From: Lachnospiraceae bacterium
GTDB taxonomy: Bacteria > Bacillota > Clostridia > Lachnospirales > Lachnospiraceae
NCBI GenBank assembly: GCA_910574865.1
Contig: CAJTDN010000002.1
Coordinates: 372,001-436,000, forward strand
Direction of reading: 5' to 3'
Length of the DNA: 64,000 nt
Shown here: one piece after another, positions 21,503-63,916 of the stretch
Numbering within the stretch: position 1 is the first letter of the stretch
Layout of the letters: every line of letters begins with the position of its first letter
Translations under genes and position numbers: made by a program
The notes under the pieces: generated by a model
The model's database searches: none
Seen by the model: the letters and a program-made list of their open reading frames with translations, nothing else
Told to the model about the DNA's origin: nothing

Positions 21503-21528
21503 TCCTTCCCGTCTCCTTCCACATTTTT

Positions 21529-47657: not shown

Positions 47658-49010
47658 TCATGCTGTCAACACCTCTTTTTCCTTCCTCTTCTGCGTGAAA
47701 TACAAGACCAGCGCGACCGCCGTCGCCAACACCGTGGACACCACGTACGCCCACATGATACCATGAATCCCAAACAAGAAATTCATGACGTAAAGCGAGG
47801 GTATCAAAAGCGCCCCCTGCCGCAGCACGGAAAGCACGATGGCGCGGGTCGGCCTGTTCGTCGCCTGAAGGTAGCTGGTGACCAAATACCCGATGCCAAT
47901 CAGCGGGCTGGTCAGCATCAAAATCGTCAGCATCTGCACGCCCAGTTCCGCCACCACGGCCTCCTTCAAAAACATGCCAATCAGCCCCTGCCTAAACACC
48001 AGGCACAAAACCATGACCGAGAATCCCGTTCCGAACAACAAAATCAATAATTTCTTGATGATTTCCTTCAGGCGGGCAAAATCCTTCGCCCCATAGCTAT
48101 AGGATAGCAACGGCTGACATCCCATGCAGACCGCCATCACCAGAAAATCGTTAATCATCGTCCCCTTACCAGCGGCCGCCATCGCCGCGATGGCATTGGT
48201 TCCATAAGATGCCAACAATTGGTTGCTAAATGTCGAGGCAAATCCCGAAAGGATACTGCCGATGCCGTTTGGCAGGCCGATTGCCAGCACGCGCAGCAAG
48301 GCCTTCGGCTTTTTCATGGCATATCGAATGTCCAGCGTGACAATATTCCCCTTCCGCAAAATATAGATTGCCAAATAAACGGTGGCCGCCACGTTTCCCA
48401 GCACCGTGGCCATAGCCGCCCCGGCCGCACCCATACGAAATACCAGGATGAACAAGGGATCGAGCACGAGGTTAATCACGGTTCCCATCAAATTACTAAC
48501 CAGGCTCTCTTTCATCGCCCCTTCCGCGCGCACCAGCATCGCCAGCGTATTTCCCAGCAAAATGAATGTCGAACCGGCAATCAGCACGTTATAATATTCT
48601 TTAGCCGGAATCCATGAATCTTCCGGGGTTCCCAAAAATGCCAACACCGGATTTGCCGCGACGAGAAGAATCACCGTCACTACCACGCCGCATAAACAAG
48701 TAAACCAGATGCTGACGCTGGAATAAATCTTGCCCTCCTCCAAATCTTTCGCGCCAAACGCGTTGGCAATCGTCGTGCAGCCTCCGTTTCCCACCATCGT
48801 GGCGACCGCCGCCAGAATGGAAAATACCGGGCCGACCAGAGAAATTGCCGCCACCTGGGCAGTATCATTTAACATCGCGATAAAAAACATGTCCGCCAGA
48901 TTATAAAAAATCATTACCAGGATGATAACGACCGACGGCACCGCCATCACGAAAATCGACTTCCATACCGGACCACTCTTGAAATACTTTTCATTTTCCA
49001 TCTGTTCCAT
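47658..49010 (-). CDS. MATE family efflux transporter
   Basis: A 450-residue protein with 12 membrane segments. VWKSIFVMAVPSVVIILVMIFYNLADMFFIAML at the start and VLDPLFILVFRMGAAGAAMATVLGN near 195-220 are MATE signatures. It exports cationic drugs or metabolites using a Na+ or H+ gradient. GAGG lies 8 bases before the ATG at 49010. A TetR regulator is divergent from it and likely controls it. TAACGACA (49092-49099) and TGTCGTTA (49151-49158) between the two genes are exact inverted repeats and could be operator half-sites. Confidence 0.92.
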   Translation of the reverse strand: MEQMENEKYFKSGPVWKSIFVMAVPSVVIILVMIFYNLADMFFIAMLNDTAQVAAISLVGPVFSILAAVATMVGNGGCTTIANAFGAKDLEEGKIYSSVSIWFTCLCGVVVTVILLVAANPVLAFLGTPEDSWIPAKEYYNVLIAGSTFILLGNTLAMLVRAEGAMKESLVSNLMGTVINLVLDPLFILVFRMGAAGAAMATVLGNVAATVYLAIYILRKGNIVTLDIRYAMKKPKALLRVLAIGLPNGIGSILSGFASTFSNQLLASYGTNAIAAMAAAGKGTMINDFLVMAVCMGCQPLLSYSYGAKDFARLKEIIKKLLILLFGTGFSVMVLCLVFRQGLIGMFLKEAVVAELGVQMLTILMLTSPLIGIGYLVTSYLQATNRPTRAIVLSVLRQGALLIPSLYVMNFLFGIHGIMWAYVVSTVLATAVALVLYFTQKRKEKEVLTA

Positions 49011-49256: not shown

Positions 49257-49328
49257 ATGAAAAGTGCCTTTTTGTCACTTCCGCGTTTCGATATGGTAGC
49301 ATTTCTATAAGGAAGGATGGTAACACCC

Positions 49329-49913
49329 ATGGATTTACGAGTAAAAAAAACGGAAAAAGCGATTCGCGGCGCATTTTATAAATTAATTCAAACCAAGCCG
49401 ATGGAAAAAATCACCGTGAAGGAACTCGCGGAACTGGCCGAGATTAACAAGACGACATTTTACGCGCATTATGAGACGATTTATGATTTGGTCGCCACGA
49501 TTGAACAGGAAATCACCGACTCCGTGATTGAAAACCTGGATGAATTCCAAATCCTGTTTGACAATCCAAGAACCTTCGTGTACGACCTATATCACGTTTT
49601 TGCGTCCTTCCACACGGACAGCTTTTCCCCGTTCAACCCGTCCAGCCAGGACTTTTTGAGGAAACTAAGCGACGCGATTTACGACGAGGTTTGCCGCCGC
49701 GGCTTTCTTTCCCCGCCTGCCGACGGGGACGAGGACGCGTCCCTGCCGGAGCGATATGCCAGCTTTGGGACGCTTCTCACTTTTTTAATCAACGGCCTTT
49801 TTGGCCTGAGCAAATGCTTTCCGAATGGAATTCCTGACAAGGATCTGGAATTTTTGGCGACATTTGTGGAAAGCGGCATACACGCCATCACGCATCTTCA
49901 ATTGCCTGACTGA
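49329..49913 (+). CDS. TetR/AcrR family regulator
   Basis: A 194-residue regulator. The N-terminal helix-turn-helix reads AIRGAFYKLIQTKPMEKITVKELAELAEINKTTFYAHYETIYDLV (about 11-55), and the C-terminal half is the ligand-binding part in the style of the TetR_C_7/8 proteins of Firmicutes. AAGGATGG lies about 8 bases before the ATG at 49329. It is divergent from the MATE gene, the usual arrangement for an efflux pump and its repressor. Confidence 0.88.
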   Translation: MDLRVKKTEKAIRGAFYKLIQTKPMEKITVKELAELAEINKTTFYAHYETIYDLVATIEQEITDSVIENLDEFQILFDNPRTFVYDLYHVFASFHTDSFSPFNPSSQDFLRKLSDAIYDEVCRRGFLSPPADGDEDASLPERYASFGTLLTFLINGLFGLSKCFPNGIPDKDLEFLATFVESGIHAITHLQLPD

Positions 49914-50093: not shown

Positions 50094-52550
50094 TTGACCA
50101 ACAAAACGACCGCAGTCGTGGATCTTCCCCACGACGCCACGATTGGCACGAAACGTACCACTGACGATCATACCTATTTTCTAAATGTAGGCTTTCACGG
50201 CAGCCACTGCATTTACCAGAAGACGCTTTTCATTCCCGAGGAATATCGCGCCATGGCCTTGTATCTGGAATTCGAAGGGATTTACCGGGATTTCACCGTG
50301 ACCCTAAACGGACACGAATTGTTGAATGAATCCTTTGGCTACATCCCTTATGCCGTGCGAATCGAAGATTTCGTTCTTTACGGAAAAGACAATGTACTCA
50401 AGGTCGAAATCGACACCCCGTTTGACAACCACAACCGCTGGTATGCCGGCACCGGCATTTATCAGGACGTGTATCTGCATGTCGCGCCTAAAGAACACAT
50501 CCGGCTGCACGGCGTGCGCGTCACCACGATCTCGCACGAGCAGCCGCGCGTCCTCGTGGAAACCGCCGTTGCCATCGGAAGTACCATTCTTCCAGGCGCA
50601 GATTCTTCCACGGAAACGGGACGTCTGGCAGCGGCAGCGACAGCGAAGGATACCGACACACAAATTCACATTGAAATTCTGGACGGGGACAAAGTGGTCG
50701 CAACCGCCGATGGGACAAGAGCCGAACTGGAAATCCCGGACGCGAAGCTGTGGGATGCGGCGCACCCGTACCTTTACACCGCCCGCGTCACATTGACAAA
50801 GGACGGACACCCCTTGGATACCGCCATGCAGACCTTCGGAATCCGCACCCTGGCGTGGAACGCCGAGCAAGGCTTTCTTGTCAACGGGGTGCGCACGTTG
50901 TTAAAGGGCGGATGCATTCACAATGACAACGGCGTGATTGGCATGGTGGCAAACCGGGTCACGGAAGAGCGGCGCGTGAAAAATCTAAAGGCAAGCGGGT
51001 TCAACGCCCTAAGAAGCGCCCACCACCCGATGAGTCCCGCCCTCTTGGAAATGTGTGACAAATACGGCATGTACGTGATGGACGAGTCCTTTGACACCTG
51101 GTACCGTATGAAACAAATCAACGGCTTCCACCTGCGGTTCATGGAATTTTACGAGGACATCACCGCCCGCATGGTACGCAAGGATTATAACCACCCTTGC
51201 GTCATCATGTATTCCATCGGCAACGAAATTAACGAAATCGGTTCCCTCAAAGGCGTCCGCGTCGCCAGACAGATGATGGAAATCATACGTTCACTGGACG
51301 CCACGCGCCCGCTGACGCTTTGCCCAAGCATGAAAATGGCCCGCAACTTTCTGGCCGACACCCCTTATGCGGAAATGGACGAGGACGAATACATGGCCCA
51401 GGGAGCTGAATATGAAAGGAAAGATGCAGACCATTATGTCTGGCTCTATACGAAGGCCATTTCCAACATTCCCGGCAGCGCGGCCGACCCCTACCCGAAA
51501 TGGGTGCAGGAAGCCGACGAGGCGGCCACGTTTCCTCTGTACAAGGACTTGGAGATTGCCGGATATAATTACTATTCGGACAAATTCGACGACCTGCACG
51601 CCCTGCATCCAGAGCGGGTGTTGTTGGGAACCGAGACTCGCGGACATTTGATTTATGATAATTGGAATTATATCAAAAAGCATCCCTATGCCATCGGCGA
51701 CTTCATCTGGACCTTGCAGGACCATATCGGCGAAGCCAATGTAAGCGGAAGGCATTATGAAAACGAGGAAGTCTTGGAGGATGCCGCTTCTTTCTGTAAG
51801 GGTCGCGGTTATCCTTGGCTTCTAAACGACGGCGGCGTGGTAGACTTACTCGGCCACACGCTTCCCGCCATTCACAAATTCCGTCTCTGCTGGGAGGAGG
51901 AACACGGGATTTATCTTGCCAGCCAGCCGCCCGTCCATGACGGCGTCGCCGCGACCTACGGCTGCTATAAATGGACCGACACGATTGACAGTTGGAGTTA
52001 TGACGGCCATGCCGGACGACCCACTTTCGTGGATGTCTATTCCGACGCGGCAGAGGTGGAAGTGCTAATTAACGGGAAGTCTTTGGGCAGAAAGACGCCG
52101 GTGGAATTTTTCGCCAAGTTCCCTTGTACTTACGAGCCGGGCGAACTGACGGGCATCGGCTTCAATGAAGCCGGAGAAGAGATATACCGCGCGACGCTTC
52201 ATAGCGCCGGAAGTGAAACCCGCGTCCGCATCATGCCGGACAAAACCGTCCTGAAAGCGGACACGCAGGATTTCTGCTTCCTCAACATTGATATCACGGA
52301 TGAAAACGGCACGATTAAGGCTTTGCCGGAACGCGAATTGACTATCACGGTGGAGGGAGCCGCCACCCTGCAGGGCTTTGGAAGTGCCGAGTGCGTGACC
52401 GCTGAAAACTATTGCGACAACGTGCACACCACCTGCAACGGCCGCGCGCTGGCGGTACTGCGAAGCGCAAACGCCCCCGGGGATGTCACCGTGACCGTCG
52501 GCTGTGACGGACTGCCCGAAGCAATCGTGCACCTGACGGCCAAAGCATAA
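50094..52550 (+). CDS. Glycoside hydrolase family 2 (beta-galactosidase type), start lost
   Basis: About 818 residues of a GH2 enzyme: sugar-binding domain (VVDLPHDATIG, GIYRDFTVTLNGHELLNESFGYIPYAV), immunoglobulin-like domain, TIM barrel, then C-terminal beta domains (DGVAATYGCYKWTD, EVLINGKSLGRKTPVEFFAKF). The acid/base Glu is in MYSIGNEINE (near 390) and the nucleophile Glu in LLGTETRG (near 513). The frame has no ATG before the domain begins; its only candidate is a TTG at 50094 without a ribosome binding site, and a TAA lies seven codons upstream. Family members usually start 12-30 residues earlier. An ATG at 50050 opens another frame that ends at the junction, so a frameshift is possible. 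Probably non-functional or poorly translated. Confidence 0.75.
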   Translation: MTNKTTAVVDLPHDATIGTKRTTDDHTYFLNVGFHGSHCIYQKTLFIPEEYRAMALYLEFEGIYRDFTVTLNGHELLNESFGYIPYAVRIEDFVLYGKDNVLKVEIDTPFDNHNRWYAGTGIYQDVYLHVAPKEHIRLHGVRVTTISHEQPRVLVETAVAIGSTILPGADSSTETGRLAAAATAKDTDTQIHIEILDGDKVVATADGTRAELEIPDAKLWDAAHPYLYTARVTLTKDGHPLDTAMQTFGIRTLAWNAEQGFLVNGVRTLLKGGCIHNDNGVIGMVANRVTEERRVKNLKASGFNALRSAHHPMSPALLEMCDKYGMYVMDESFDTWYRMKQINGFHLRFMEFYEDITARMVRKDYNHPCVIMYSIGNEINEIGSLKGVRVARQMMEIIRSLDATRPLTLCPSMKMARNFLADTPYAEMDEDEYMAQGAEYERKDADHYVWLYTKAISNIPGSAADPYPKWVQEADEAATFPLYKDLEIAGYNYYSDKFDDLHALHPERVLLGTETRGHLIYDNWNYIKKHPYAIGDFIWTLQDHIGEANVSGRHYENEEVLEDAASFCKGRGYPWLLNDGGVVDLLGHTLPAIHKFRLCWEEEHGIYLASQPPVHDGVAATYGCYKWTDTIDSWSYDGHAGRPTFVDVYSDAAEVEVLINGKSLGRKTPVEFFAKFPCTYEPGELTGIGFNEAGEEIYRATLHSAGSETRVRIMPDKTVLKADTQDFCFLNIDITDENGTIKALPERELTITVEGAATLQGFGSAECVTAENYCDNVHTTCNGRALAVLRSANAPGDVTVTVGCDGLPEAIVHLTAKA

Positions 52551-52559
52551 TAAAACGTT

Positions 52560-53018
52560 TCACGTCCGCTTTCTCCCCATCTTCATAATATATTCCGTCG
52601 TACCTTCCTCCAAACATCGCTTACCCGTGGGTTCAAACCCATGGCTTCGATAAAAGCGGACGGCCTTGTCATTTTTCTCCAAAACCCACAAGGTATCCGC
52701 TCCCCGTTCAGAAACGGCAAATTCCAACAACACCCCGCCGACCCCTTGGCTTTGGAAGAACGGCTCCACATACAGTTCTTTCACTTCCTTCCCGGACAAG
52801 CAAAGGATACCTTTTACGAACGCGTCGTCATAAACCCAGTACCCATCCAGCTTGTCCGGCGCGGACAGCAATTCTTCCACCAGCGGCAACACCTGCATTT
52901 CCCCAAATGAAACCTGGTCATTTTGAAAAATGGGGCGATACTGCGTTCTCTTCGTGAAAATAAGGATTTCCGCGATTCGCGAAACATCACTTGGAACAGC
53001 CTTTCTAACATACTTCAT
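52560..53018 (-). CDS. GNAT family N-acetyltransferase
   Basis: A 152-residue acetyltransferase. VKELYVEPFFQSQGVGGVLLEFAV (about 80-103) is the acetyl-CoA loop and LEKNDKAVRFYRSHGFEPTGKR the C-terminal motif. GGAGG lies 9 bases before the ATG at 53018. It is the last gene on the minus strand after the sugar and glycyl-radical operon and may be unrelated to it; the substrate is unknown. Confidence 0.85.
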   Translation of the reverse strand: MKYVRKAVPSDVSRIAEILIFTKRTQYRPIFQNDQVSFGEMQVLPLVEELLSAPDKLDGYWVYDDAFVKGILCLSGKEVKELYVEPFFQSQGVGGVLLEFAVSERGADTLWVLEKNDKAVRFYRSHGFEPTGKRCLEEGTTEYIMKMGRKRT

Positions 53019-53099
53019 GGCAATTTTCCTCCGCATAAAGGATACGCTTTCACAACGATATTTCTAATTAAGTATATCAAATAAGCTTGTTCTTAACAA

Positions 53100-54014
53100 T
53101 CAAAAGTTTTCAAAAGACAATTTTCGTCCATCCGCCAGATAATCACCTTCCTCCGACCATACGGTTCCCATAATATACCATGCTCCATTCATTTTTACAA
53201 ACTGGTTTGCATACTGCACATTCTGGCACAAATCCGGGCAGTCATTCGGAAGCAGGTTAAAATCCGGTACAAAATGATATGGCCCCCATATCGAATCGGA
53301 AACCATGTAATAGCTTGTCTGACGTAGTTTTTCGCCGTACTTTTCTATCATCCAATCCGCGAACAAATCATGAAAGCATGAAAACAGCAAGACATATTTC
53401 CCCCCTATGTAATAAATCTGCGGGCACTCCAACTCCTGACAAATCGGCTCGACCTGCACCTCCCCAATCACCCTCCACGCTTTCATATTCACGCTCCGGC
53501 AAATGGCGACCGTCCCGCAGGCATCTGCCAAAGCCGTCTTGCTGGTCGCGCAAACCAGTGCATATATATTTCCATCATGCCGTATCAACTTGGCGTCCCG
53601 CCAGTGGCAAAATTTTCGAAGTCCCCGCCCCAGCGGGGCGACCACCTGCGTATCTGGCAATATCACCGGATTTTGCGGCAGTTTTTCCCAATGATACAAG
53701 TCATCCGAGACGGCGATTCCGATTTTTCCGTCATACGAATTCCACCGCCCCGTATAACTCATCCAAAAACGACCTTTCCATTCTATTACCGACCCCGTAG
53801 ACAAACATTTTTCATCCCATTCGCCCGCCCTTCCTTTAGACAACACGATACCATGCCGCTCCCAATGTACCAAATCCTTGCTGGTCGCATGGGCTATGTC
53901 CCAGGCGGTATGCCGCTCCTCCGACATCGGACATGTCAAATAAAAGCAATGGCAAATATCATTTTTCACAAAATACCACGAATCTCCGATATGGTTTTCC
54001 TCATGTCTCAACAT
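53100..54014 (-). CDS. Five-bladed beta-propeller glycosidase (GH43/GH32-like)
   Basis: About 304 residues of a beta-propeller hydrolase. The blades show WDIAHATSKDLVHWERHGIVLS, FWMSYTGRWNSYDGKIGIAVSDDLYHWEK, KFCHWRDAKLIRHDGNIYAL and ECPQIYYIGGKYVLLFSC, the pattern of families 32, 43 and 68, with candidate acid residues in RDAK and ECPQ. There is no signal peptide, so it acts in the cytoplasm on imported sugar. The ATG at 54014 is taken; the frame is open up to 54101 and overlaps the dehydrogenase stop. The true family and sugar specificity cannot be settled by reading. Confidence 0.75.
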   Translation of the reverse strand: MLRHEENHIGDSWYFVKNDICHCFYLTCPMSEERHTAWDIAHATSKDLVHWERHGIVLSKGRAGEWDEKCLSTGSVIEWKGRFWMSYTGRWNSYDGKIGIAVSDDLYHWEKLPQNPVILPDTQVVAPLGRGLRKFCHWRDAKLIRHDGNIYALVCATSKTALADACGTVAICRSVNMKAWRVIGEVQVEPICQELECPQIYYIGGKYVLLFSCFHDLFADWMIEKYGEKLRQTSYYMVSDSIWGPYHFVPDFNLLPNDCPDLCQNVQYANQFVKMNGAWYIMGTVWSEEGDYLADGRKLSFENF

Positions 54015-54093
54015 ATTTTCACCCGCTTCTTTCTCGAATGCTAACACCGCTTTTCTCGTGCAGGCACCCATGCACTTTCCAATGCCTATTTTT

Positions 54094-55113
54094 CTACTCA
54101 AACATCAACGCCACTTTCAGTGCCCGCTTTTCCTGAATTGCGGCAAATCCCGCTTCATATTCCTCAATTGGAAGCCTATGGGTTATGAGTTCGTCCGTTT
54201 TGATTTTTCCTGACAAAATTCCTTCTGAAATCACGTCATGCGTTAACATTTCACATTCCTCAATCGGCCACTGCACGAACTGTAAAGAAAAATTACGCAT
54301 ATCCTTCAAGTCCAACTGCAGGTTCGAACCCGTTCCCAAACCGTACACCACGATTTTACCGTCCGCCGCGACAAAATCCATGCCTTGTCCAATGGTATCC
54401 GTACTTCCAATCGTGTCCAGGTAAATCGTGACACGTCCACCGTAGGTCTCTTTCAACCTTGCCTTTTCCATTGCGTCCTTATTCCAAAACACGTCAATGG
54501 CTCCCAATCTTTCCGCCACTTCCAAACTGCCCTTTCGGTTTCCCAACATCGCAACATTTTCTATTCCCAGTAGTTTTAAATTACTCAGAAAACATAACCC
54601 TACGGGACCGTCCCCTACAATCAGCACGACTTCCTCATTCCGTATCCCAATCCGTTTGATTGCACTGCAGGTTTCTTTCAACGTAATCATAAGCGATGCC
54701 TGTTCGGGCGTAATCCTTTCTGAAACCACTTGTTGCGTCAACCCGCTTTTATTTTCCAGTCCGTCCCGCCGCATGGCCCTAGTGTCAATGACAACGCCAT
54801 ACTCCGCAAATCCGCCCCACGCACTGTAATATTTTTCATTGTCCAAAAGACTTGCGCGAATCACCCGATCCCCGATTTTATAGGTAGTTACTTTGTCGCC
54901 CACGGCCACGACGCGTCCCGCGCTTTCATGCCCCAGCATCAATGGAAAATTAGGTGCTTCCGGTAATTCCCCCCTTATGATTTCCATATCGGTTCCATTA
55001 CAAATCATACAGCATTCCATCTTTACCAACGCCTCATATGCGCCTATCTCCGGCATCGGAATGTCCGAGACAAGCTCTATTTTTTTATCTGACGTGACAA
55101 CAAGGCCTTTCAT
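54094..55113 (-). CDS. Zinc-dependent alcohol/polyol dehydrogenase (MDR family)
   Basis: A 339-residue medium-chain dehydrogenase. The catalytic zinc site has CMICNGTDMEIIRGE (Cys near 36) and GHESAGRVVAVGDKV (His and Glu near 62). The Rossmann motif VVLIVGDGPVGLCFLSNLKLLG is near 170-190. The structural zinc lobe with its four cysteines is missing, as in some sorbitol and threonine dehydrogenases. It probably oxidises or reduces a sugar alcohol or keto-sugar of the pathway. ATG at 55113 has GGAGG 11 bases upstream. It lies between two glycosidase genes in the operon. Confidence 0.88.
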   Translation of the reverse strand: MKGLVVTSDKKIELVSDIPMPEIGAYEALVKMECCMICNGTDMEIIRGELPEAPNFPLMLGHESAGRVVAVGDKVTTYKIGDRVIRASLLDNEKYYSAWGGFAEYGVVIDTRAMRRDGLENKSGLTQQVVSERITPEQASLMITLKETCSAIKRIGIRNEEVVLIVGDGPVGLCFLSNLKLLGIENVAMLGNRKGSLEVAERLGAIDVFWNKDAMEKARLKETYGGRVTIYLDTIGSTDTIGQGMDFVAADGKIVVYGLGTGSNLQLDLKDMRNFSLQFVQWPIEECEMLTHDVISEGILSGKIKTDELITHRLPIEEYEAGFAAIQEKRALKVALMFE

Positions 55114-55190
55114 CTTTCCATCCACCTCCATCTTCTTATAGCGCCGCTTCTCGACGACCATCCCCCTAGCGTCCTCCCACGGCCTGCCAT

Positions 55191-57329
55191 CTATTCTTGG
55201 CAGTTCAATATTACGACATGTTCTCCCCCAAGCCCCCAGGGAATCCATTCACAAGGAACGTCATCCAAAAGCATCTCGGAATGTCCGCTTGTTTCCTGTG
55301 TGTAGACGGCAAGCGTCATCTGACAATATCGCAGGTTCTTGATATGTATTCCTTTCAGTTCTTTTGGAATGCATGGCTTGAACAAAATTCCCCGTTCCTC
55401 CAGCTTCAGTCCAAACACTCCGTATAACAGTATGGAAATATATCCCATCGCGTGCCACGTCTGTCCCGGCCACCGCCAATTCACCCCCGTGTCCGTGTCC
55501 AACACCTCGTAAAACGTTTTCTGAAACACCGCGTTTCGAACCTGCTGTGCAATCAGCTTCATCAAGAGCGCGCGATTTCCATTTGCCGCGGCACACTGTG
55601 CATACCCCGTATAATATACCGGCCACGCCGCATGCGTGACGTGGCTCTTCTCTTTGCGTCCCGGCATCAGTGGGATTCCGTATTCCGTGAGAATTTCCTT
55701 CTCCAGTACCTTTAAAATCTGTTTTTTCCGTGTCTCTTCCGCCACCCCGAATCGTTCCAGAACCGCCGCCTCCTGGCCGCAGCTTTCCCATGTCCCCTCT
55801 AAAAAAGCCCGGCTCCCGACCGGTCCCGAGGTGTAATATTGATATCGGAAATTCCAATATTGCTTTCGAATCATTTGAAGCAGCGTCCGATGCCTTTCCC
55901 CATATTGAATCGCCTCACTTTGAGCCCCCTTTTCCATTGCTCCAAACATCCCTGCAAATTTTGCGGCCACCCGATACGCCTCCATAAAATAAATTTCCGT
56001 ACTAAGCGCGTACCCGCCCGCCTCCGTATCCGCAAACGCGTCGTTTGCCGAGTTATACTCCGCATGCATCAGCCCCCGTTCCGTATCAAAATAAGATTCC
56101 GCTTCCCGCATTTGCTCTTGTATACGCGGCCACATGCCACGAACGGTTTCAATATCGTGTGTCGCAAGGTAATACTCCCAGCTGCTTATGACGGGTGCCG
56201 CAATCCCATCCACCGCATTGTCCTTTCCGTTCTTCATAATATATTGTAGGGTTTTCTTAGAAACCTCCGGCTCCCAAAACACGCCGCCCCTCAAAAAAAT
56301 CTGCATGGTGTCCCGCCTCCATACTCCAAAACCCATGCTTTCCCCTTGAAACGCCCCGGCCGACCACATGCCCTTCTCTCCTGGTAAGGCAAATTTAGAA
56401 GAGCAGGCATCCGCCAATACGTCCAAGGCTACATGGTAAGCCGCATCCACGGACGGGATTCCCGTCGTGATTTCCGGAAACCGCATTTGCCGTTTCCCGC
56501 GCCAAACATTTTCATGATTTAAAATCCTCGTCATGTCCCCCATCGGGGTGTGTCTCCATTCAAATTCCTCCATCACGCGCGGCGGAGAACAAATCGTATA
56601 AGCATCCAAAACATACGCGTCCGGCTTTCCATAGGCGTTATCCGACAGCCGATTCTTTCGGATACAATAATTGGTACTCTGATATACCATCTCGCCGCCC
56701 CTGTCCATCCCTTTGTCCACCGGCAGTCGTCGTTCTATTTCCGCTTCCACCTCTTTGGGATATTTAGACGCGCGCAGGCCATACACCGTGAGACAAATTA
56801 AAAATCCATTCTTCTCCCCCTCAAAGGAGCCCGCCAGGCCACTCCGTGCGGCCACTGAAACGTGCCCCTCCGCCTCCTGCTTTTGCGTCCGCTTCCCGCA
56901 ATAGTCCCCTGACGGAAGCCATGCCTTGAATCCTTTCGCGTCCAAATATATGTGTATTTTAATAATGCCATCGTGATGCTCCAAAAAAACCGGCTCTTCC
57001 TCCCCAACCGTCAGCATACTTGAAATGGCATCCCAGACAACGCGCTCTCCTAAAATAGAGCATTCTATCTGTCGCGCACATCCCGCGTCCACCACGAGCT
57101 CTACTTCGTAACGATTCGTCTCCCGCTGAAATTGCTCCTTTGGCACGCGGACAATTTCAATATCCGGCCAGGTTGCCGGTCTGATTTCAAACGGCAGGAA
57201 AATTTCAAAGGGCCGTTCCAATGACCGATACCTCCACTGTCGCTTCCAAACTCGATATTTTTCCGTTTGTCCCCCATCAAAATCGCACTCCGCCCTCCAC
57301 TCCGGGTTATTTTTTTCGTTCTTTTCCAT
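55191..57329 (-). CDS. Putative (alpha/alpha)6-barrel glycosidase
   Basis: A 712-residue protein with no signal peptide. The N-terminal 250 residues are beta-rich. The C-terminal two thirds look like a six-hairpin glycosidase: GFGVWRRDTMQIFLRGGVFWEP near 340, GALPVISSWEYYLATHD-like segment near 385, AEYNSANDAFADTEAGGYALSTEIYFMEAYR near 440 and TGVNWRWPGQTWHAMGYISILLYGVFGLKL near 635. This recalls GH65, GH94 and related families; WRRDT and NDAFADTE carry candidate catalytic acids. No family is certain. AGGGGA lies 7 bases before the ATG at 57329. It follows the activase gene by 36 bp and probably cleaves the imported glycoside. Confidence 0.7.
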   Translation of the reverse strand: MEKNEKNNPEWRAECDFDGGQTEKYRVWKRQWRYRSLERPFEIFLPFEIRPATWPDIEIVRVPKEQFQRETNRYEVELVVDAGCARQIECSILGERVVWDAISSMLTVGEEEPVFLEHHDGIIKIHIYLDAKGFKAWLPSGDYCGKRTQKQEAEGHVSVAARSGLAGSFEGEKNGFLICLTVYGLRASKYPKEVEAEIERRLPVDKGMDRGGEMVYQSTNYCIRKNRLSDNAYGKPDAYVLDAYTICSPPRVMEEFEWRHTPMGDMTRILNHENVWRGKRQMRFPEITTGIPSVDAAYHVALDVLADACSSKFALPGEKGMWSAGAFQGESMGFGVWRRDTMQIFLRGGVFWEPEVSKKTLQYIMKNGKDNAVDGIAAPVISSWEYYLATHDIETVRGMWPRIQEQMREAESYFDTERGLMHAEYNSANDAFADTEAGGYALSTEIYFMEAYRVAAKFAGMFGAMEKGAQSEAIQYGERHRTLLQMIRKQYWNFRYQYYTSGPVGSRAFLEGTWESCGQEAAVLERFGVAEETRKKQILKVLEKEILTEYGIPLMPGRKEKSHVTHAAWPVYYTGYAQCAAANGNRALLMKLIAQQVRNAVFQKTFYEVLDTDTGVNWRWPGQTWHAMGYISILLYGVFGLKLEERGILFKPCIPKELKGIHIKNLRYCQMTLAVYTQETSGHSEMLLDDVPCEWIPWGLGGEHVVILNCQE

Positions 57330-57365
57330 CAAAGTTTCCCCTTGCCTTCCATTTCCATGCATCCC

Positions 57366-58325
57366 TTAATTCCACTCCACGCACACGCCCGTCCTTCTAA
57401 ATTCTTCCAACATCCATTCCTGCCGCTTCATATCCGGTTTCTCAAACCGAGACATATCAAGCCCCAAGGAACGATATTTGGATTCTCCTAACGTATGGTA
57501 CGTCAACAACTGAATTTTTTTCAGGTGCCCTCCCATCCCGCCAAGTATTTTTAACATCGCCCCGACTTCCTCTTTCGTATCATTTACTCCATGAACGACC
57601 GGGATTCGAATCCAACAGTCGGCAACATGCGTAAGCCGTTTTAGATTCTCACAAATTCGATCATTCGGCATGCCCACATACTTTTTATGCGTGTCTGAAA
57701 GCCCCGCCTTCATGTCCACTAAAAACAAATCCGTGACCGGAAGTACTCCCTCTATTTTGTCCCAAGGAAGATGCAGGGCCGTATCAACACATACATGAAT
57801 CCCTCCCGTCTTCATTTTAGATGCGAGACAAAACACCTGCCGCGCTTGTAAAAGGCACTCTCCGCCGGAAAACGTCACCCCGCCAAAGCCAGGAAAGTTT
57901 TCCTTGTCCCGCATACATTCTTTTTCAATCTCGGAAAGTGCAACATGTCTTCCATACAATTCCAGTGCGTTGGCCGGACAAGCCTCCACGCATCGTCCGC
58001 AGGCAAGGCACCCCTCTCGTATCCACTCGTGCCGCCCGGCCTCCTTGTCACGGAATGACTCTATTTTGCCGTAATTCGTCACTTCTATTTCTTGTAACGT
58101 TTTTTTTATCTTGTGGAGTTGCGTTGGGCAAACCTCTCCGCACGTGCCGCAGCCTATGCAACGCCCCGCGTCAAACCCAACCTGCCCTTTCAGGGAAACC
58201 GTCTCCGGATTATGGCACCATGCACAATGGAGATTGCATCCTTTAAAAAATACCGTCGTCCGTATCCCCGGGCCGTCATGCAGGGAGAAATGTTGAATAT
58301 TCGTTATAAATGCGGTTTCAGCCAT
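57366..58325 (-). CDS. Glycyl-radical enzyme activating enzyme (radical SAM)
   Basis: A 319-residue radical SAM protein. CNLHCAWCHNPE (about 30-41) is the CxxxCxxC cluster motif. Two ferredoxin-like clusters follow, CIGCGTCGEVCP and CLACGRCVEACP, as in activases of the dehydratase and decarboxylase glycyl-radical enzymes but not of pyruvate formate-lyase itself. FSGGECLLQ (about 150) binds SAM. It makes the glycyl radical on the adjacent enzyme. Its start overlaps the last 8 bases of that gene, so the two are translated together. Confidence 0.94.
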   Translation of the reverse strand: MAETAFITNIQHFSLHDGPGIRTTVFFKGCNLHCAWCHNPETVSLKGQVGFDAGRCIGCGTCGEVCPTQLHKIKKTLQEIEVTNYGKIESFRDKEAGRHEWIREGCLACGRCVEACPANALELYGRHVALSEIEKECMRDKENFPGFGGVTFSGGECLLQARQVFCLASKMKTGGIHVCVDTALHLPWDKIEGVLPVTDLFLVDMKAGLSDTHKKYVGMPNDRICENLKRLTHVADCWIRIPVVHGVNDTKEEVGAMLKILGGMGGHLKKIQLLTYHTLGESKYRSLGLDMSRFEKPDMKRQEWMLEEFRRTGVCVEWN

Positions 58326-60570
58326 TCCGCATGGTTCGCTCGATAACTTCATCTTGTAATTCCTCACTTAATGAAACAAATGGCGCGCTATACCCGCACA
58401 CGCGTACAATAAGATTCCTATGACTGTCCGGATCTTTTTTCGCCTGCAGCAATGTTTCCTTGTCCACCACGTTAAAATCCAGGGCATTTCCGCCACAATG
58501 TACAAACGCCTCCAAAATCTTCACGAAAACATCCGTCTCGACGGCATTTTTGCTAATCGGCATCTCCAAATAAGATACGGCACAGCCCGGATAATCCTTA
58601 AAATCAATGGAACGCAGGGACTGCATCAAGGTGGAAGCGTCAATTTCCTTCGTGCTTTCCATCGGATTGCATCCTCGGGAAATCCTCTGCCCGGCATGTC
58701 GGCCGTCCGCCGTGGCCCATGTATGTTCCTTCAACACGTCATAGAAAAAGAACGCAAATAGCGACGCTTCAAAATAACCGCCCCGGGCGTTTGGCATGCC
58801 GGAACCATGTATTGCCAAATCGTGGAACACCCGCCCGGCAAAGCTTGCCATTTCCTCGTCATCCTGCCCATACTTGGGCACTTTGTTCTGCAGATACAAC
58901 CGCCACGCCTCCTGCCCGGCAAAATCCGTTTTGAGCAATTCTTTCATCTGCGCCATCGTCAGCTTTCGCTCTTCATATACCACTTTCCGAATCGCATATA
59001 ACGAATCTATGAAGGTGCCGATTCCGGTAAGGGAAAAACTGGTCGAATTATAACGCGCCCCGCCCCTCGTCACGTCCATTTTCTTGTCTATACAAGCCTG
59101 CATGGTCGCGGAAAACAACGGCATCGGATTGATTTCGGCCCAAATCTGCTCAAATCTGTTATAATGCCCGGCACATGCAAATAAAAATTGAGAAACATTG
59201 TAAATTACGTTTTCATAAAACCCTTCGAACGTATCCGCCTTGTCCGGCCTTTTTAGCACGATTTGCTCCCGACTCCAAAAATCCAGCTCTTCCGGGAACA
59301 GCATGCCGCTTAATATTTGTGGAAGGTTCAGATACAGAAACGCCCGTGAATTACATTCATTGGACAAAACGGGTTCCTGGCATCCTCCGGCCAAATAAAG
59401 GCGGCAGTCCGCCAACTCTTTTCCGGCCCTATGGTGTGCCTCAATCAACACGTCGTCATTCAGAATCGACAATGCATTTCTGCCCAACGCCGCTATCTGC
59501 GCCACCATTCTTTTATACGCCTCCGGATGGACGGCAGAAATGCGTACTTCCAACTTTGGACTCGATGTCTCGTACTTGATAAATGAATTTAAAATCAAGC
59601 GTGTCACTTCATTGAAAATGACATTCCCGTCCGCGTCACACCCGCCGATTACAAGGGATGCATTTGTTCCGCTTGTTTCCGCAGTATGGCTCCACCTCGC
59701 ATCCGTAATCAAAATAAGACAATCTATCAGGTTTTGTGCCTCTTCCTTCGTGAGCGCGCCCTCCTTGACATCCTTTTCATAAAACGGATACAAAATCCGG
59801 TCGTAATGCCCCATCACCGCAAACCCGCTTCCTTCCATCGACGTGCACAACTCGCGTGTAAACCAAACAGAGCACAGTGCCTCGTAAAATGTCCCGGCCG
59901 GGTAACGCGGAACTCGTTTCGCCGTGTCCCGGATTCTTTCAAGTTGCTCGCGCACGGCCGCATCCGTTTCACCTTCCAACATTTTCTCTGATTCTTTTGA
60001 AAACCGTTCTCCCAGAAGAATCGCCGCGTCACATGCCGCCAACGCCGCCTCCAAAAATTCCCGCTCTCCTGAATTTTTCTCTTTCTCATGCCCCGCTTGC
60101 ACGGTTTCTTCCAGTTTTTCCGCAATTTCGTCACGAATGCTTTGAAATCCCCGGTGCATGACCGCCTCGACATCTGCATAATGATGTGAATAATCCACCA
60201 TCATCTCGGCAAAAATCAAGTCTTTTTCCACGTAGGGCGCGCGCCAGTCATCAAATTCCTTTACCGGATAATGGGTCTTGGAAGTCCAACATCCCAATCC
60301 CGGTATTGGCGGAAATGCCCCTGCCACTGAATTGCGTTCCCGTCCCGTAATAATTTCCGAATAGAATGGACAATACCGAAATACTTTGACCTCGCACTTC
60401 CGTGAAACAACCTCATATGTCCACTTCTTCTGCACCATGGCAGACACTCCGCCCGACTGGCGATACCGTTCATCCAGTTCCGCTTCCAACGCGGACACGT
60501 CCGCCGGATAGGTTCGGTAAAACTCCTCACTCTCCACCCTGAATTTCTGTTCGTCAAATACAAACGCCAT
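58318..60570 (-). CDS. Glycyl-radical enzyme (PFL-like), substrate unknown
   Basis: A 750-residue glycyl-radical enzyme. The radical motif RVCGYSAPF puts the glycyl at Gly726, 24 residues from the end. The active-site loop is LAGGCQEP with thiyl Cys397 and Glu399; most dehydratases have GCVE, so Gln398 is notable. The N-terminal half has GRERNSVAGAFPPIP near 77-90 and the middle AETSGTNASLVIGGCDADG near 297-315. The Cys-x-Glu pattern suggests a dehydratase, decarboxylase or C-S/C-N lyase rather than formate-lyase. GAGG lies 8 bases before the ATG at 60570. It is fourth in an operon of sugar importer, activase, glycosidases and dehydrogenase, so its substrate is probably a sugar-derived polyol or acid. 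Confidence 0.92.
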   Translation of the reverse strand: MAFVFDEQKFRVESEEFYRTYPADVSALEAELDERYRQSGGVSAMVQKKWTYEVVSRKCEVKVFRYCPFYSEIITGRERNSVAGAFPPIPGLGCWTSKTHYPVKEFDDWRAPYVEKDLIFAEMMVDYSHHYADVEAVMHRGFQSIRDEIAEKLEETVQAGHEKEKNSGEREFLEAALAACDAAILLGERFSKESEKMLEGETDAAVREQLERIRDTAKRVPRYPAGTFYEALCSVWFTRELCTSMEGSGFAVMGHYDRILYPFYEKDVKEGALTKEEAQNLIDCLILITDARWSHTAETSGTNASLVIGGCDADGNVIFNEVTRLILNSFIKYETSSPKLEVRISAVHPEAYKRMVAQIAALGRNALSILNDDVLIEAHHRAGKELADCRLYLAGGCQEPVLSNECNSRAFLYLNLPQILSGMLFPEELDFWSREQIVLKRPDKADTFEGFYENVIYNVSQFLFACAGHYNRFEQIWAEINPMPLFSATMQACIDKKMDVTRGGARYNSTSFSLTGIGTFIDSLYAIRKVVYEERKLTMAQMKELLKTDFAGQEAWRLYLQNKVPKYGQDDEEMASFAGRVFHDLAIHGSGMPNARGGYFEASLFAFFFYDVLKEHTWATADGRHAGQRISRGCNPMESTKEIDASTLMQSLRSIDFKDYPGCAVSYLEMPISKNAVETDVFVKILEAFVHCGGNALDFNVVDKETLLQAKKDPDSHRNLIVRVCGYSAPFVSLSEELQDEVIERTMRNG

Positions 60571-60596
60571 CAAAGACACCTCGCTTTCTTTTTCCT

Positions 60597-61418
60597 TTAG
60601 CGTCCGCCCATTCCCGTCAGGGCAATTCCTTGTACCAGGCCTTTCTGGAATATGACATAAAAGATAACGCCCGGCAGGATGCTGATCGTCGTCGCCGCCA
60701 TCAATGCCGACCAGTCCGTTCCATATTGCCCGCTAAACATATAAAGCCCCAAAGGAAGTGTTTTATATGTGTCCGTCGAAGTCACGATTAACGGCCAGAA
60801 AAAGGATTTCCATGAATTTACAAACGTAAAGATTGCCAGAGAGGCCAGCCCGGGCTTGGACATCGGCAGGATGATCCTTGTGAATATGCCGAATCTGCTA
60901 CATCCGTCAATTTTGGCCGCCTCTTCAATCTCCACCGGAATGGAAAGGAAAAACTGTCTCAGCATAAAGACTCCGAATGCCGTAAACGCGGGCGGGATGA
61001 TTAATGCGGAATAGGAATTGTGCCACCCCAGTATCCTAAGAATCATATACAGCGGGATAATCGTCACTTGTAAGGGCACCATCAGTGTCGCGAGATAGGC
61101 AAAAAACAATTTGTCCCTACCTCTAAATTTCAACCGTGCAAAAGCATAGGCGGCCATCGCCGACGTCACCACCGTCACCACCGTCGTCGCCACTCCTACA
61201 AAAATCGAATTAAACAAATACCGCCCAAACGGAAATGCATTCCATGCCCTCGCATAATTTTCTACCGCGAAATAACTGCCAAACAGCGCCGCCGTATTCT
61301 GAAGCACCTCCTCCTTCGGCTTTAAAGAAGTAGAAAGCATATAAACAAGCGGTATCAGGAAAAGGATTGTGACCAAAGTTATCAGCACGATTGACAATAC
61401 TTGTTTTTTTCGTCTCAT
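60597..61418 (-). CDS. Carbohydrate ABC transporter permease, MalG type
   Basis: A 273-residue permease with six membrane segments. The EAA loop IEEAAKIDGCSRFGIFTRIILP near 185-206 and the ending GLVQGIALTGMGGR are standard for MalG/UgpE proteins. GGGAGGGG lies 6 bases before the ATG at 61418; the ATG two codons earlier has no room for a ribosome binding site. It forms the importer with the preceding two genes and borrows an ATPase encoded elsewhere. Confidence 0.92.
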   Translation of the reverse strand: MRRKKQVLSIVLITLVTILFLIPLVYMLSTSLKPKEEVLQNTAALFGSYFAVENYARAWNAFPFGRYLFNSIFVGVATTVVTVVTSAMAAYAFARLKFRGRDKLFFAYLATLMVPLQVTIIPLYMILRILGWHNSYSALIIPPAFTAFGVFMLRQFFLSIPVEIEEAAKIDGCSRFGIFTRIILPMSKPGLASLAIFTFVNSWKSFFWPLIVTSTDTYKTLPLGLYMFSGQYGTDWSALMAATTISILPGVIFYVIFQKGLVQGIALTGMGGR

Positions 61419-61431
61419 GTTCATCCCCTCC

Positions 61432-62340
61432 CTAACTTTCGTAATTTACAAAACGTTTTTGCTGTTTCATCAGAAACGCGGTCACGATTAAAACACAGAA
61501 AAACAACACCCACGCGATTGCCGACGCATATCCAAGACGCTGGTACTTGAACGCATTGTTATATAGATAAAGAACCAACGTATTCGTCTCATTATTCGGG
61601 CCCCCCATCGTGGAAACGAAAGTCTGGTCAAATACCTGAAACGAACTAATCACGGTCATCACGACGGCAAAAAATATGGACGGAGACATGCACGGCAGTG
61701 TCACACGAAAGAATGTCTGCACGGCGTTCGCCCCATCAATTTTGGCCGCCTCCTGCACGGACTGCGAAACTCCGAGAAGTCCCGATATGAATATGACCAT
61801 GTTATACCCAAATCCCTGCCACACGCTGACAATCGCGACTGCAATCATGGCGGTCGCGGTACTGCCAAACCAGTTTGGTGCCTCTCCTCCAAAGAAGCGG
61901 ATCACGGAATTTACCAGACCACCGTCGCTTAAAATCCATTTAAAAATCATGGTGGAGGACACGATACCAATCATCATTGGAAGGAAAAATGCCGAACGGA
62001 AAAATTCATTTGCCTTTTTCAGGCTGGTAATCCACACCGCCATCCCCATGGCAATCAATACGTTAAAGGCAACATAGGCCGCCACGTAGACCAACGTGTT
62101 TTTCATGATTTTCCAAAACAACACGTCCTCGGTAAACAATTTCACGAAATTGGCCGCCCCGACAAACGCGCGCTCCCCCGTCAACGGCCAGTCATACAAG
62201 CTCATCACCAATGAAAATATCATCGGAACCATTGTAAATATCAAGAATCCAATCAGATTCGGAGCCAGAAATACAAGTGCCACTCCGAAATCACTTTTGC
62301 TTTTTCTTTTAGAACCGGACTTTTTTCCCGGTACGCTCAT
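61432..62340 (-). CDS. Carbohydrate ABC transporter permease, MalF/UgpA type
   Basis: A 302-residue permease with six membrane segments. FLAPNLIGFLIFTMVPMIFSLVMSLYDW near the start and the EAA loop VQEAAKIDGANAVQTFFRVTLP near 200-221 identify it. It ends about 14 bases before the MalG-type gene. AAGGAGG lies 9 bases before the ATG at 62340. Confidence 0.92.
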   Translation of the reverse strand: MSVPGKKSGSKRKSKSDFGVALVFLAPNLIGFLIFTMVPMIFSLVMSLYDWPLTGERAFVGAANFVKLFTEDVLFWKIMKNTLVYVAAYVAFNVLIAMGMAVWITSLKKANEFFRSAFFLPMMIGIVSSTMIFKWILSDGGLVNSVIRFFGGEAPNWFGSTATAMIAVAIVSVWQGFGYNMVIFISGLLGVSQSVQEAAKIDGANAVQTFFRVTLPCMSPSIFFAVVMTVISSFQVFDQTFVSTMGGPNNETNTLVLYLYNNAFKYQRLGYASAIAWVLFFCVLIVTAFLMKQQKRFVNYES

Positions 62341-62408
62341 GCACAAGCACCTCCTTCATCGAGCGGGCGGGGGATTCACGAATCCCTCCGCCCCCCACCG
62401 CAAACATG

Positions 62409-63704
62409 TCATTTCAACAATGCATCCACCTGGGCTTGTATGTCCTTCGCCGCCTCTTTTGCGGCAGCCTCCCCGGAAAACACCGCGTCCATGCCGGAAT
62501 TCAAAATCGTGCTCACCTCGGAAAAATTCTCCGTTACATGGTAGGGAATTCCAATGTCAAGAGATGCCTTGATTGCCTCTTCCAAGCCGTCCTGTTCTGA
62601 CATCGCCTCATAATAGTAATCACGGACAGATTCTCTGGAGGGCAGCGCGCGACCGTTTTCCGCCAAAATCTGCTGCGCCGCCGGCCCCGTCAAACTCTGC
62701 AGTGCCAGATAAGCCTCCTTTGGGTGCTTGGTCGTGTTGCTCACCGCCAGTCCGGAACCATTGATTGTCGTCACATGCCGTTGTGCCGCCGGAACAATCG
62801 TGTAACCGACATTGAAATCACAATAATTGATTACATTGGGAACGCACCACGGCCCATCAATCAACATTCCGATATTCCCCGCCTCAAACTGCTCCCAGTT
62901 CCAAACCGTATTGGCCGTATCCGCAATCTTTGGCGCATACCCCTGCACATTAATCAAATCCGCCAGTGTCTGCAACGCGTCCGTCGTCTCTTTATCAGTG
63001 ATTTCAAACGTTCCTTTCTCATCAATAATCTCTCCGCCCAGTGATAAAACTTGTGGAATATAATAATCGCAGCTAGAGCAGAAAACGGTTCCATAGTTCC
63101 CATCAACAGACAATTTTTCACAGATTTCCATGAATTCTTCCCAATCTGTTTCTTCGTCCGGATATTCTACCTTGTACTTGTCAAAGAGATCCTTATTATA
63201 ATACATGACATATGGGCCAAAGTCATAAGGAAAAGCATAAACCTCATCGTCAAACGTAAAGCAGTCCAAAATTCCCGAATAAAAATCACCCACGTTCACT
63301 TTTTCATCGTCCTTGATGTATTCTCCCAGTGGAAGCATGGAATCTTTGTAATCCGACGCCCGTGAAAAATGCATGTACATCAAGTCCGGCGCGTTCCCGC
63401 TTGCCAGTTCAACCGGAAGCTTCGTCCAATAACTCGTCCAATCCGTGTTTTCAATCGTAATTTTAATATTCGGGTATTCTTTTGTCACATTGTCGGCAAG
63501 CTGCTGCCAGATTGCAGCTTCCGCCTCGCTCTCGCACTTGTTTAACCAACGCAGTTCCACGATATCCTCTTCGCCGTCAACCTGCCGCGTCCCGTCCGTA
63601 CCCGTCCCGTCCGCCTTTGCGTCATCACCCGAGCTTCCACATGCGGCCAACGACAGCATCATCAGCATCGCCATGACAAATGCCATTATCTTTCTTGTTT
63701 TCAT
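62409..63704 (-). CDS. Sugar-binding lipoprotein (extracellular solute-binding protein family 1)
   Basis: A 431-residue lipoprotein. The ATG at 63704 with GGAGG upstream gives signal peptide MKTRKIMAFVMAMLMMLS and lipobox LAAC (Cys22), then a Gly/Asp linker. The mature part has the SBP family 1 pattern: ANDLMYMHFSRAS-like region near 120, YALPYDFGPYVMYYNKDLFDKY near 160, DGPWCVPNV near 300 and a late LALQSLTGPAAQQILAENGRALPSR. The upstream part of the frame to 63893 is untranslated leader. It captures the glycoside that the operon degrades. Confidence 0.93.
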   Translation of the reverse strand: MKTRKIMAFVMAMLMMLSLAACGSSGDDAKADGTGTDGTRQVDGEEDIVELRWLNKCESEAEAAIWQQLADNVTKEYPNIKITIENTDWTSYWTKLPVELASGNAPDLMYMHFSRASDYKDSMLPLGEYIKDDEKVNVGDFYSGILDCFTFDDEVYAFPYDFGPYVMYYNKDLFDKYKVEYPDEETDWEEFMEICEKLSVDGNYGTVFCSSCDYYIPQVLSLGGEIIDEKGTFEITDKETTDALQTLADLINVQGYAPKIADTANTVWNWEQFEAGNIGMLIDGPWCVPNVINYCDFNVGYTIVPAAQRHVTTINGSGLAVSNTTKHPKEAYLALQSLTGPAAQQILAENGRALPSRESVRDYYYEAMSEQDGLEEAIKASLDIGIPYHVTENFSEVSTILNSGMDAVFSGEAAAKEAAKDIQAQVDALLK

Positions 63705-63848
63705 CTTTCTTCCTCCATATATTTTCCGGTAGTACCAAGAACTACCTGTTTTCTGCCGCGTCCCTCTCTTCTTAACGTCAGAGAAGTCCGCCTTTATCAG
63801 GGAGCATAATCTTATACTCCCAATTTCTACGTTCCATCCACCTTTGTA

Positions 63849-63864
63849 TGTCAACCGGTTGTCA
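63849..63864. promoter_or_regulatory. LacI-like operator 1
   Basis: TGTCAACCGGTTGTCA is a near-perfect palindrome centred on AACCGGTT, typical of LacI-family operators. It lies about 10-25 bases downstream of the predicted transcription start of the operon, where binding would block elongation. Confidence 0.65.
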
Positions 63865-63879
63865 TATCGTGGTACACTT

Positions 63880-63908
63880 ATCATATCAGCCATTTTAATT
63901 TATGTCAA
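63880..63908 (-). promoter_or_regulatory. Promoter of the glycyl-radical sugar operon
   Basis: On the minus strand TTGACA (63908-63903), a 17-base spacer and TATGAT (63885-63880). Transcription would begin near 63873, giving a leader of about 170 bases before the lipoprotein start. The -35 element overlaps operator 2. Confidence 0.75.
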
Positions 63909-63916
63909 CCGGTTTT
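63903..63916. promoter_or_regulatory. LacI-like operator 2
   Basis: TGTCAACCGGTTTT shares ATGTCAACCGGTT with operator 1, 54 bases away (about five helix turns). It covers the -35 element of the operon promoter, so repression by looping or direct block is likely. The regulator gene is not in the window. Confidence 0.6.

Follow-up and report, generated by a model that had tools for sequence, protein, structure and literature searches.

Organization and control of the operon

The window, as we call the whole stretch analyzed here, is 64,000 nt of contig CAJTDN010000002.1 (positions 372,001 to 436,000; assembly GCA_910574865.1) from a Lachnospiraceae bacterium, and the feature studied in it is a minus-strand operon at positions 52560-63916 that contains a glycyl-radical enzyme (GRE). 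The original prediction, made from the letters of the sequence, had named eight genes on this strand, and the open reading frames (ORFs) and their domains bear out all eight in the order given. This order is sugar-binding lipoprotein, two permeases, GRE, activase, a glycosidase-like protein referred to here as GHaa6, zinc dehydrogenase and a beta-propeller glycosidase referred to here as GHprop, followed by a GNAT gene. The features are:

63908-63880, minus strand: sigma-70-type promoter, TTGACA-17-TATGAT, 11/12 match, its first hexamer overlapping one operator
63853-63860 and 63907-63914: two LacI-type operator palindromes, AACCGGTT, 54 bp apart
62409..63704, minus strand: sugar-binding lipoprotein of an ATP-binding cassette (ABC) importer, SBP_bac_1, lipobox LAAC; the ORF opens at 63893
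61432..62346, minus strand: ABC permease A, sugar type, BPD_transp_1
60597..61424, minus strand: ABC permease B, sugar type, BPD_transp_1
58318..60579, minus strand: GRE, 753 aa, PFL-like and Gly_radical domains, with C400-Q401-E402, H132, and G729 in RVCGYSA
57366..58367, minus strand: radical S-adenosylmethionine activase, with CNLHCAWC and two four-cysteine ferredoxin-type (Fer4) motifs
55191..57362, minus strand: GHaa6, (alpha/alpha)6 glycosidase/phosphorylase-like protein without a family
54094..55113, minus strand: zinc-type medium-chain alcohol/polyol dehydrogenase, ADH_N/ADH_zinc_N; the ORF opens at 55248
53100..54014, minus strand: GHprop, GH32-like beta-propeller glycosidase, Glyco_hydro_32N; the ORF opens at 54101
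52560..53036, minus strand: GNAT acetyltransferase, matched in same-genus loci only

The tight spacing behind a promoter that had been claimed is seen in the short gaps and overlaps between the ORFs. From the lipoprotein through the permeases to the GRE the gaps are 62, 7 and 17 bp, the GRE and activase ORFs overlap, and 3 bp separate the activase from GHaa6. The most likely start of the lipoprotein, judged by a ribosome-binding site GGAGG with an ATG, is 63704, and the likely starts of the dehydrogenase and GHprop were corrected to about 55113 and about 54014, the latter being Met30, where its relatives begin. The GHaa6 and dehydrogenase ORFs overlap, or are about 77 bp apart if the dehydrogenase begins at Met46, and the dehydrogenase and GHprop ORFs overlap, or are about 79 bp apart if GHprop begins at Met30; the GNAT gene follows GHprop after 63 bp. 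Over the scanned region there were 24 promoter-like matches versus 17.1 (standard deviation 4.7) in shuffled sequences and 21 terminator-like matches versus 14.0 (standard deviation 3.5), and the scan listed no terminator-like site directly behind the last gene.

We read the operon as LacI-controlled because the pair of AACCGGTT palindromes lies at the promoter, because a divergent LacI-family gene lies just past the right edge of the window (L041 16158-17141), and because CG-centred palindromes are typical LacI operators. The pair was also found in the loci L042, L043, L052 and L057, which come from two contigs that were each labeled twice (L042/L052 and L043/L057), and a single copy was found in L054. 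When the region upstream of the first gene was scanned for palindromes, matches were obtained in 6 of 15 loci, and the operator of the window was among them in L052 and L057 only. L063 and L067 have in common a different palindrome, ACAATCCGGATTG, which does not resemble the operator of the window and lies upstream of the lipoprotein ORF by about 72 bp. A 768-aa ORF that joins a LacI-type DNA-binding and sugar domain to an ABC solute-binding domain adjoins a GRE operon in L046 (5311-7617, plus strand).

The GRE lies outside the named families tested

The signature of the GRE superfamily is present in the enzyme: the Gly_radical domain scores 61.8 bits (cut-off 22.2), the predicted fold is that of a GRE, and G729 and C400 are invariant in 26 aligned sequences, with E402 in at least 90% of them. 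The Cys-x-Glu motif of the eliminases is kept as CQE, and H132 corresponds to a histidine of HypD (H160) and of glycerol dehydratase (GDH). The activase scores 291.4 bits with TIGR02494, whose cut-off is 174.35. The window GRE reached the cut-off of no NCBIfam GRE family, and its highest identity to any aligned structure is 26%. Clustering with an assigned family such as pyruvate formate-lyase (PFL) or GDH, which would have spoken against the original prediction, did not occur.

Several identities were considered and rejected. The best NCBIfam equivalog is that of hydroxyproline dehydratase, HypD (NF043068), at 326.4 bits against a cut-off of 1100, whereas three HypD members found here score 1417-1501; in addition, Asp278 and Asp339 of HypD are Gly252 and Thr305 in the window GRE. 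Both aspartates are required by HypD (PMC7077986). PFL2/GDH (TIGR01774, 323.3 bits vs 678.2), choline trimethylamine-lyase or CutC (TIGR04394, 245.9 vs 1050), sulfopropanediol dehydratase (NF048011 and NF048009, 310.3 and 241.3 vs 1000) and the aryl-decarboxylase models (159-201 bits vs cut-offs of 1100-1150) were rejected likewise. PFL was rejected at 81.3 bits with TIGR01255 (cut-off 994.2) and with GGCQE in place of the Cys-Cys pair. YbiW/PflD was rejected at 222.1 bits against 1109 with PRK09983 (formate C-acetyltransferase), which we take to be the PflD model, and in the tree YbiW and PflD stand with the other eliminases and are not sister to the window clade. Not among these rejected identities is isethionate sulfite-lyase, for which there was no IslA model among the 12 NCBIfam matches, while phmmer gave 208 bits to 7kq3.

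The core of the clade has fixed residues of its own. H258, R261, N368 and Q401 are found in 20 of 20 core members and D701 in 19 of 20, and the corresponding residues in 18 other GREs are R (18), Q (17), G (18), V (16) and Q (18). Compared with GDH, the motifs of the pocket region are changed from NQKFHP to YLEMP and from HD to RA. On these sequence comparisons the GRE is read as a new subfamily, outside all the named families tested.

Two other identities bear on this. That the enzyme is a glycerol or propanediol dehydratase which has diverged to act on a small diol from the aldolase branch described below is very improbable: it belongs to the same superfamily and GDH is its second-best profile match in the PDB, but it is under the TIGR01774 cut-off, its pocket motifs are replaced and it is separate in the tree. 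Moreover, its own genome has a GDH-type enzyme in a second GRE (L001), which is above the TIGR01774 cut-off and groups with GDH. It is also improbable, though less so, that the enzyme is not an eliminase and that its radical reaction is that of a C-C lyase, of a decarboxylase or of another type. This would fit with the lack of a known substrate and with the many alignment columns that are unlike those of known eliminases, but Cys-x-Glu is kept and the PFL and decarboxylase scores are far under their cut-offs.

Distribution of the clade

In a quick maximum-likelihood tree, 32 rows including the window GRE form one clade with a Shimodaira-Hasegawa-like approximate likelihood ratio test (SH-aLRT) value of 100 and a branch of 0.96, apart from HypD, GDH, CutC, YbiW and PflD. 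The tree was midpoint-rooted and supported by SH-aLRT only, its rows had been reduced from 112 to 77 by dropping fragments, near-duplicates and over-sampled groups, and the inner forks of the clade are partly weakly supported. Among the matches listed from 61 related genomes, clear relatives (88-93% identical) belong to G001 and G002, which are both of the same genus, copies 41-43% identical are in G026 (two) and G024, and the next long matches are at most 32% identical. Counting its own genome, 7 of 397 genomes of the family reach E <= 1e-95 and, with a profile, 3 of 391 genomes of the class reach 1e-150. In a scan of species genomes the best 80 of 132 confirmed stretches were merged to 78 loci, and among these best 80 the first 25 loci (L052-L076), with Blautia massiliensis, Murimonas (from a record marked unverified), Diplocloster and Mediterraneibacter among their hosts, are 35-93% identical. 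A scan of viral contigs gave 7 pattern matches and no relative of the GRE.

The GRE of G002 is in two pieces, encoded by overlapping ORFs that differ in frame (L057 9968-12255; L043 9525-11815), through a frameshift or an assembly error. A second group, of GREs about 670 aa long in which the Cys loop is mostly CWEP, makes up most of L088-L129 (for example, L088 1698-3809, L106 and L125); it is found in Lachnospiraceae, other Clostridia and Methanobrevibacter and branches apart from the window clade. The neighbors of the deep relatives L064, L069, L071, L076, L077, L087, L188 and L189, some of them assigned by Pfam, indicate no common substrate. L069 (2326-3997) has, by eye, a 2-keto-3-deoxy-6-phosphogluconate-type aldolase and a 2-keto-3-deoxygluconate-type PfkB kinase. 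The deep relatives in L080, L078, L071, L076 and L188, whose hosts are Clostridia and one Victivallales genome, adjoin genes of the glycoside hydrolase (GH) family GH2, a SASA-type esterase, a GH43-like protein (below cut-off) and BNR-repeat proteins. Because such glycan-type genes lie beside deep relatives, the link of these GREs to glycans may be older than the window clade.

The uptake and GRE core is conserved

The neighborhood was compared in 21 loci including the window, with two near pairs (L059/L060 and L068/L070) and two short contigs (L054 and L056) among them. A neighbor was the best BLAST match with E <= 1e-8 on the strand of the GRE, and LacI alone was counted on both strands; under this strand rule L048 is counted without its GH32 and aldolase genes. 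The GRE and an adjoining activase are in 21 of 21 loci, the dehydrogenase in 20, both permeases in 19 and the sugar-binding lipoprotein in 18. LacI is in 15, in 12 of them at 54% identity or more to the LacI query. Accessory genes are less frequent: GHaa6-type 11/21, GHprop-type 7/21, either of the two 14/21, PfkB kinase 8/21 (the L048 copy at 26%), aldolase 6/21 and an S9 esterase 2/21. What stays constant is thus the set of ABC uptake, zinc dehydrogenase, GRE and activase. Since the gene set recurs around the GRE in other genomes, this is not a chance arrangement, and the neighborhood, of which poor conservation would have spoken against the original prediction, is conserved well beyond the genus.

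Seven loci are without GHaa6 and GHprop, namely, the short contigs L054 and L056, L063 and L067, which have the S9-type esterase, and L066, L072 and L073, which have none of these genes; glycosidases of other families in the flanks of these loci were sought only in part. The order in L073 is sugar-binding lipoprotein, permease, permease, dehydrogenase, GRE, activase, LacI, aldolase and kinase, followed by MutS and MutL, and by its gene content this is an apparently compact route with no glycosidase in the operon. Upstream in L062 there are a ketohexokinase-type gene and a SIS-domain gene.

The glycosidases vary

GHprop matches the Pfam model GH32N at 79.5 bits (cut-off 22.1), and its triad D40, D169 and E225 (numbered from the ORF opening at 54101), which we take to be the GH32-like catalytic residues, is invariant in 7 of 7 sequences. 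The 333-aa ORF gave no match to GH32C, the usual C-terminal beta-sandwich domain, and has a GDSW block in place of the NDPNG block that is usual in GH32. GHaa6 is under the Pfam cut-offs (GH116 and GH78, 23.6 vs 26.3 and 21 vs 24.5), while its structure model (predicted local distance difference test 79.7) has the (alpha/alpha)6 fold and matches chains of amylo-alpha-1,6-glucosidase, GH94, GH78, GH65, neutral invertase and GH63 at 9-16% identity. It was given no family because neither Foldseek nor VIA-align 2 singled one out, with GH94, GH133, GH65, GH63 and GH100 as the families considered by fold. In 7 of 10 aligned GHaa6 sequences there are about 180 or more extra N-terminal residues; the copy in the window is short, as are the two relatives closest to it. 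In L058, a DUF2961 gene (20629-21966, plus strand), presumably GH172-type, lies beside the kinase and aldolase, and the same GRE neighborhood has a GH32 gene; together they hint at fructofuranoside-type substrates.

The original prediction was that a glycoside is imported and cleaved in the cytoplasm before a radical step. Its uptake and GRE part is constant, but glycosidase cleavage is not, as 14 of the 21 loci have GHaa6 or GHprop. These enzymes appear to be front ends that can replace one another and, therefore, the glycoside reading is supported only in part. In its full form, an imported glycoside would be hydrolyzed in the cytoplasm, the sugar would go to glycolysis and the GRE would act on the freed polyol, cyclitol or aglycone. 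We regard this as possible and rather doubtful. The 14 loci with GHaa6 or GHprop favor it, and so do the alternative front ends, since the esterase and the two GH folds, which are unrelated, would each release the same alcohol. However, L063, L066, L067, L072 and L073 extend beyond the operon and yet have neither glycosidase, and L073 consists of transporter, dehydrogenase, GRE, activase, LacI, aldolase and kinase.

A kinase and an aldolase in several loci

The original prediction did not take in the kinase and aldolase, which occur together in seven loci (L048, L053, L055, L058, L059, L060 and L073); the aldolase of L048, found by clustering and Pfam on the opposite strand, is a seventh. Of the four aldolases tested, all exceed the cut-off for the subfamily of ketose-bisphosphate aldolases, TIGR00167 (246-253 bits vs 215.6), and none that of an equivalog, and four PfkB kinases tested match IolC best in NCBIfam, at 79-90 bits against a cut-off of 300. 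Among solved structures, YdjI is nearest to the L053 aldolase and YdjH to the L059 kinase; the E. coli annotation gives YdjI as octuluronate-1-phosphate aldolase and YdjH as octuluronate kinase. The genome of the window holds such a pair elsewhere, 80% and 56% identical to the L053 aldolase and kinase. Near that pair (L141 4996-11108) a GH43 gene lies on the same strand, with two lipoprotein-like ORFs between them on the other strand. An operator linking this distant pair to the operon was rejected, as SAACCGGTTS has 23 sites in the genome versus 35 for the reversed control.

The kinase (E <= 1e-30) is in 52 of 397 family genomes, that is, in 6 of 7 with the GRE and in 46 of 390 others, when the two draws of 397 genomes for GRE and kinase are taken as one set. 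The GRE genome G139 is without that kinase and has another PfkB kinase and an aldolase near its GRE. The kinase-aldolase pair also serves genomes free of the GRE. In 20 other Lachnospiraceae kinase regions, a cluster of xylose-isomerase-like TIM barrels occurs in 8 and one of AraC-type regulators in 7, each identified through Pfam on one representative; this company suggests ketose metabolism with no named sugar.

The pair also enters a reading in which the GRE is a radical lyase. It would break the ring or glycosidic C-O bond of an intact, unphosphorylated carbohydrate (anhydro-sugar, glycoside or sugar conjugate) direct from the ABC importer, with neither water nor phosphate, and the deoxy-ketose would pass to the dehydrogenase, a C1 kinase and the class II aldolase, as an unphosphorylated counterpart of YbiW/PflD. 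In its favor, the locus can do without GHaa6 and GHprop, genes for a kinase and a ketose-type aldolase lie close by, and known GREs open the rings of anhydrohexitol phosphates (PMC12441222; PDB titles 8id7 and 8id0). On the other hand, YbiW and PflD are not sister to the window clade and, by our own reasoning, a 1-deoxyketose would have no C1 hydroxyl for a YdjH-like kinase. We consider this reading unlikely. If true, radical glycolysis would exist in a second form, one that does not depend on the phosphotransferase system (PTS).

Proposed pathway

We propose, with a probability of roughly 0.55, that the GRE represents a new subfamily and acts on a sugar or polyol without a phosphate group, in which it breaks a C-O bond by elimination; the product would then be reduced, phosphorylated at C1 and split by aldol cleavage. 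The LacI-controlled ABC transporter would import the carbohydrate or polyol, which GHaa6, the GH32-like glycosidases or the esterase would free from different conjugates. We infer that the substrate is unphosphorylated because there is an ABC importer and no sugar kinase among the genes of the window operon. The activase would put the radical on Gly729, Cys400 would abstract a hydrogen from a carbinol carbon while Glu402 takes the hydroxyl proton, and the neighboring C-O bond would break to give a deoxy-keto product. Activation and the roles of Cys and Glu here follow those of established eliminases, as given in PMC7077986. The zinc dehydrogenase would reduce the carbonyl product, or interconvert hydroxyl and keto groups, regenerating NAD(P)+, and in several lineages the PfkB kinase and class II aldolase would act next, with dihydroxyacetone phosphate and an aldehyde as the products when a ketose 1-phosphate is split. 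The analysis shows the gene content, its conservation, the predicted fold and motifs of the GRE and its separation from the named families; we infer the direction and order of the steps, the C-O elimination and the link to kinase and aldolase.

Several points weigh against this proposal. There is no known substrate, no residue fixes the reaction type, elimination is argued from a two-residue sequence motif, and the dehydrogenase could act before the GRE. In L061 and L062, 2 of the 21 loci, no ABC genes were found by similarity, and in three of the 15 loci with LacI the match is weak, at 22-26% identity. The kinase-aldolase pair in the genome of the window does not adjoin the operon and AACCGGTT is absent from its region, L141. 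The co-occurrence of kinase and GRE (Fisher p = 2.4e-5) does not account for relatedness, and the link may be one to general sugar metabolism, as far more genomes have the kinase than have the GRE.

In the gut, GREs carry out anaerobic reactions of consequence, and for many of the abundant ones no function is known (PMC11574389). A conserved sugar-import operon of gut bacteria around an oxygen-sensitive GRE suggests an undescribed anaerobic breakdown of a sugar or sugar-like compound. Since the genomic context of the clade is clear in Blautia, Murimonas, Diplocloster and other Lachnospiraceae, the substrate could be found by binding and feeding tests. If these succeed, a carbohydrate reaction would be added to the GRE family, and two GH groups at or outside family borders could be assigned.

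Convergent with the operon is a GH2 beta-galactosidase-like gene (50094-52550, plus strand; 386.8 bits with the GalB model, cut-off 900), and upstream of it are, by eye, a TetR-type regulator (49317-49913, plus strand) and a MATE-type transporter (47658-49010, minus strand).

Comparison with known systems

As had been predicted, no microcompartment or amino-acid genes are among the genes of the operon, and no described pathway with this gene set was found in open-licence PMC papers, although a subscription paper could exist. HypD is the nearest named family by NCBIfam score and by phmmer in the PDB, and Cys-x-Glu and the histidine of H160 are common to both, but its Asp278, Asp339 and Phe340, whose roles are given in PMC7077986, are Gly252, Thr305 and Asn306 in the window GRE. 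The GRE-type glycerol and 1,2-propanediol dehydratases share the eliminase fold and Cys-x-Glu, whereas the window GRE is below their cut-off and has other motifs and a separate branch. The ydj cluster of E. coli (YdjG-YdjL) likewise brings together a PfkB kinase, a class II aldolase and zinc dehydrogenases; unlike the loci here, it is without a GRE, and the identities are 38% for the aldolase, 22% for the kinase and 23-27% for the dehydrogenase.

In biochemical terms, the closest precedent is anhydroglycolysis, in which YbiW/PflD open the ring of anhydrohexitol phosphates (PMC12441222). Both systems have a GRE and activase and would share a role in sugar catabolism and cleavage of a sugar-like ring C-O bond, and an fsaA aldolase gene lies near ybiW. 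YbiW/PflD has PTS-phosphorylated substrates (PMC12441222), frw PTS genes beside pflD and an FsaA-type aldolase, whereas the window type has ABC import, a zinc dehydrogenase and a class II aldolase, and its GRE belongs to another clade with other residues.

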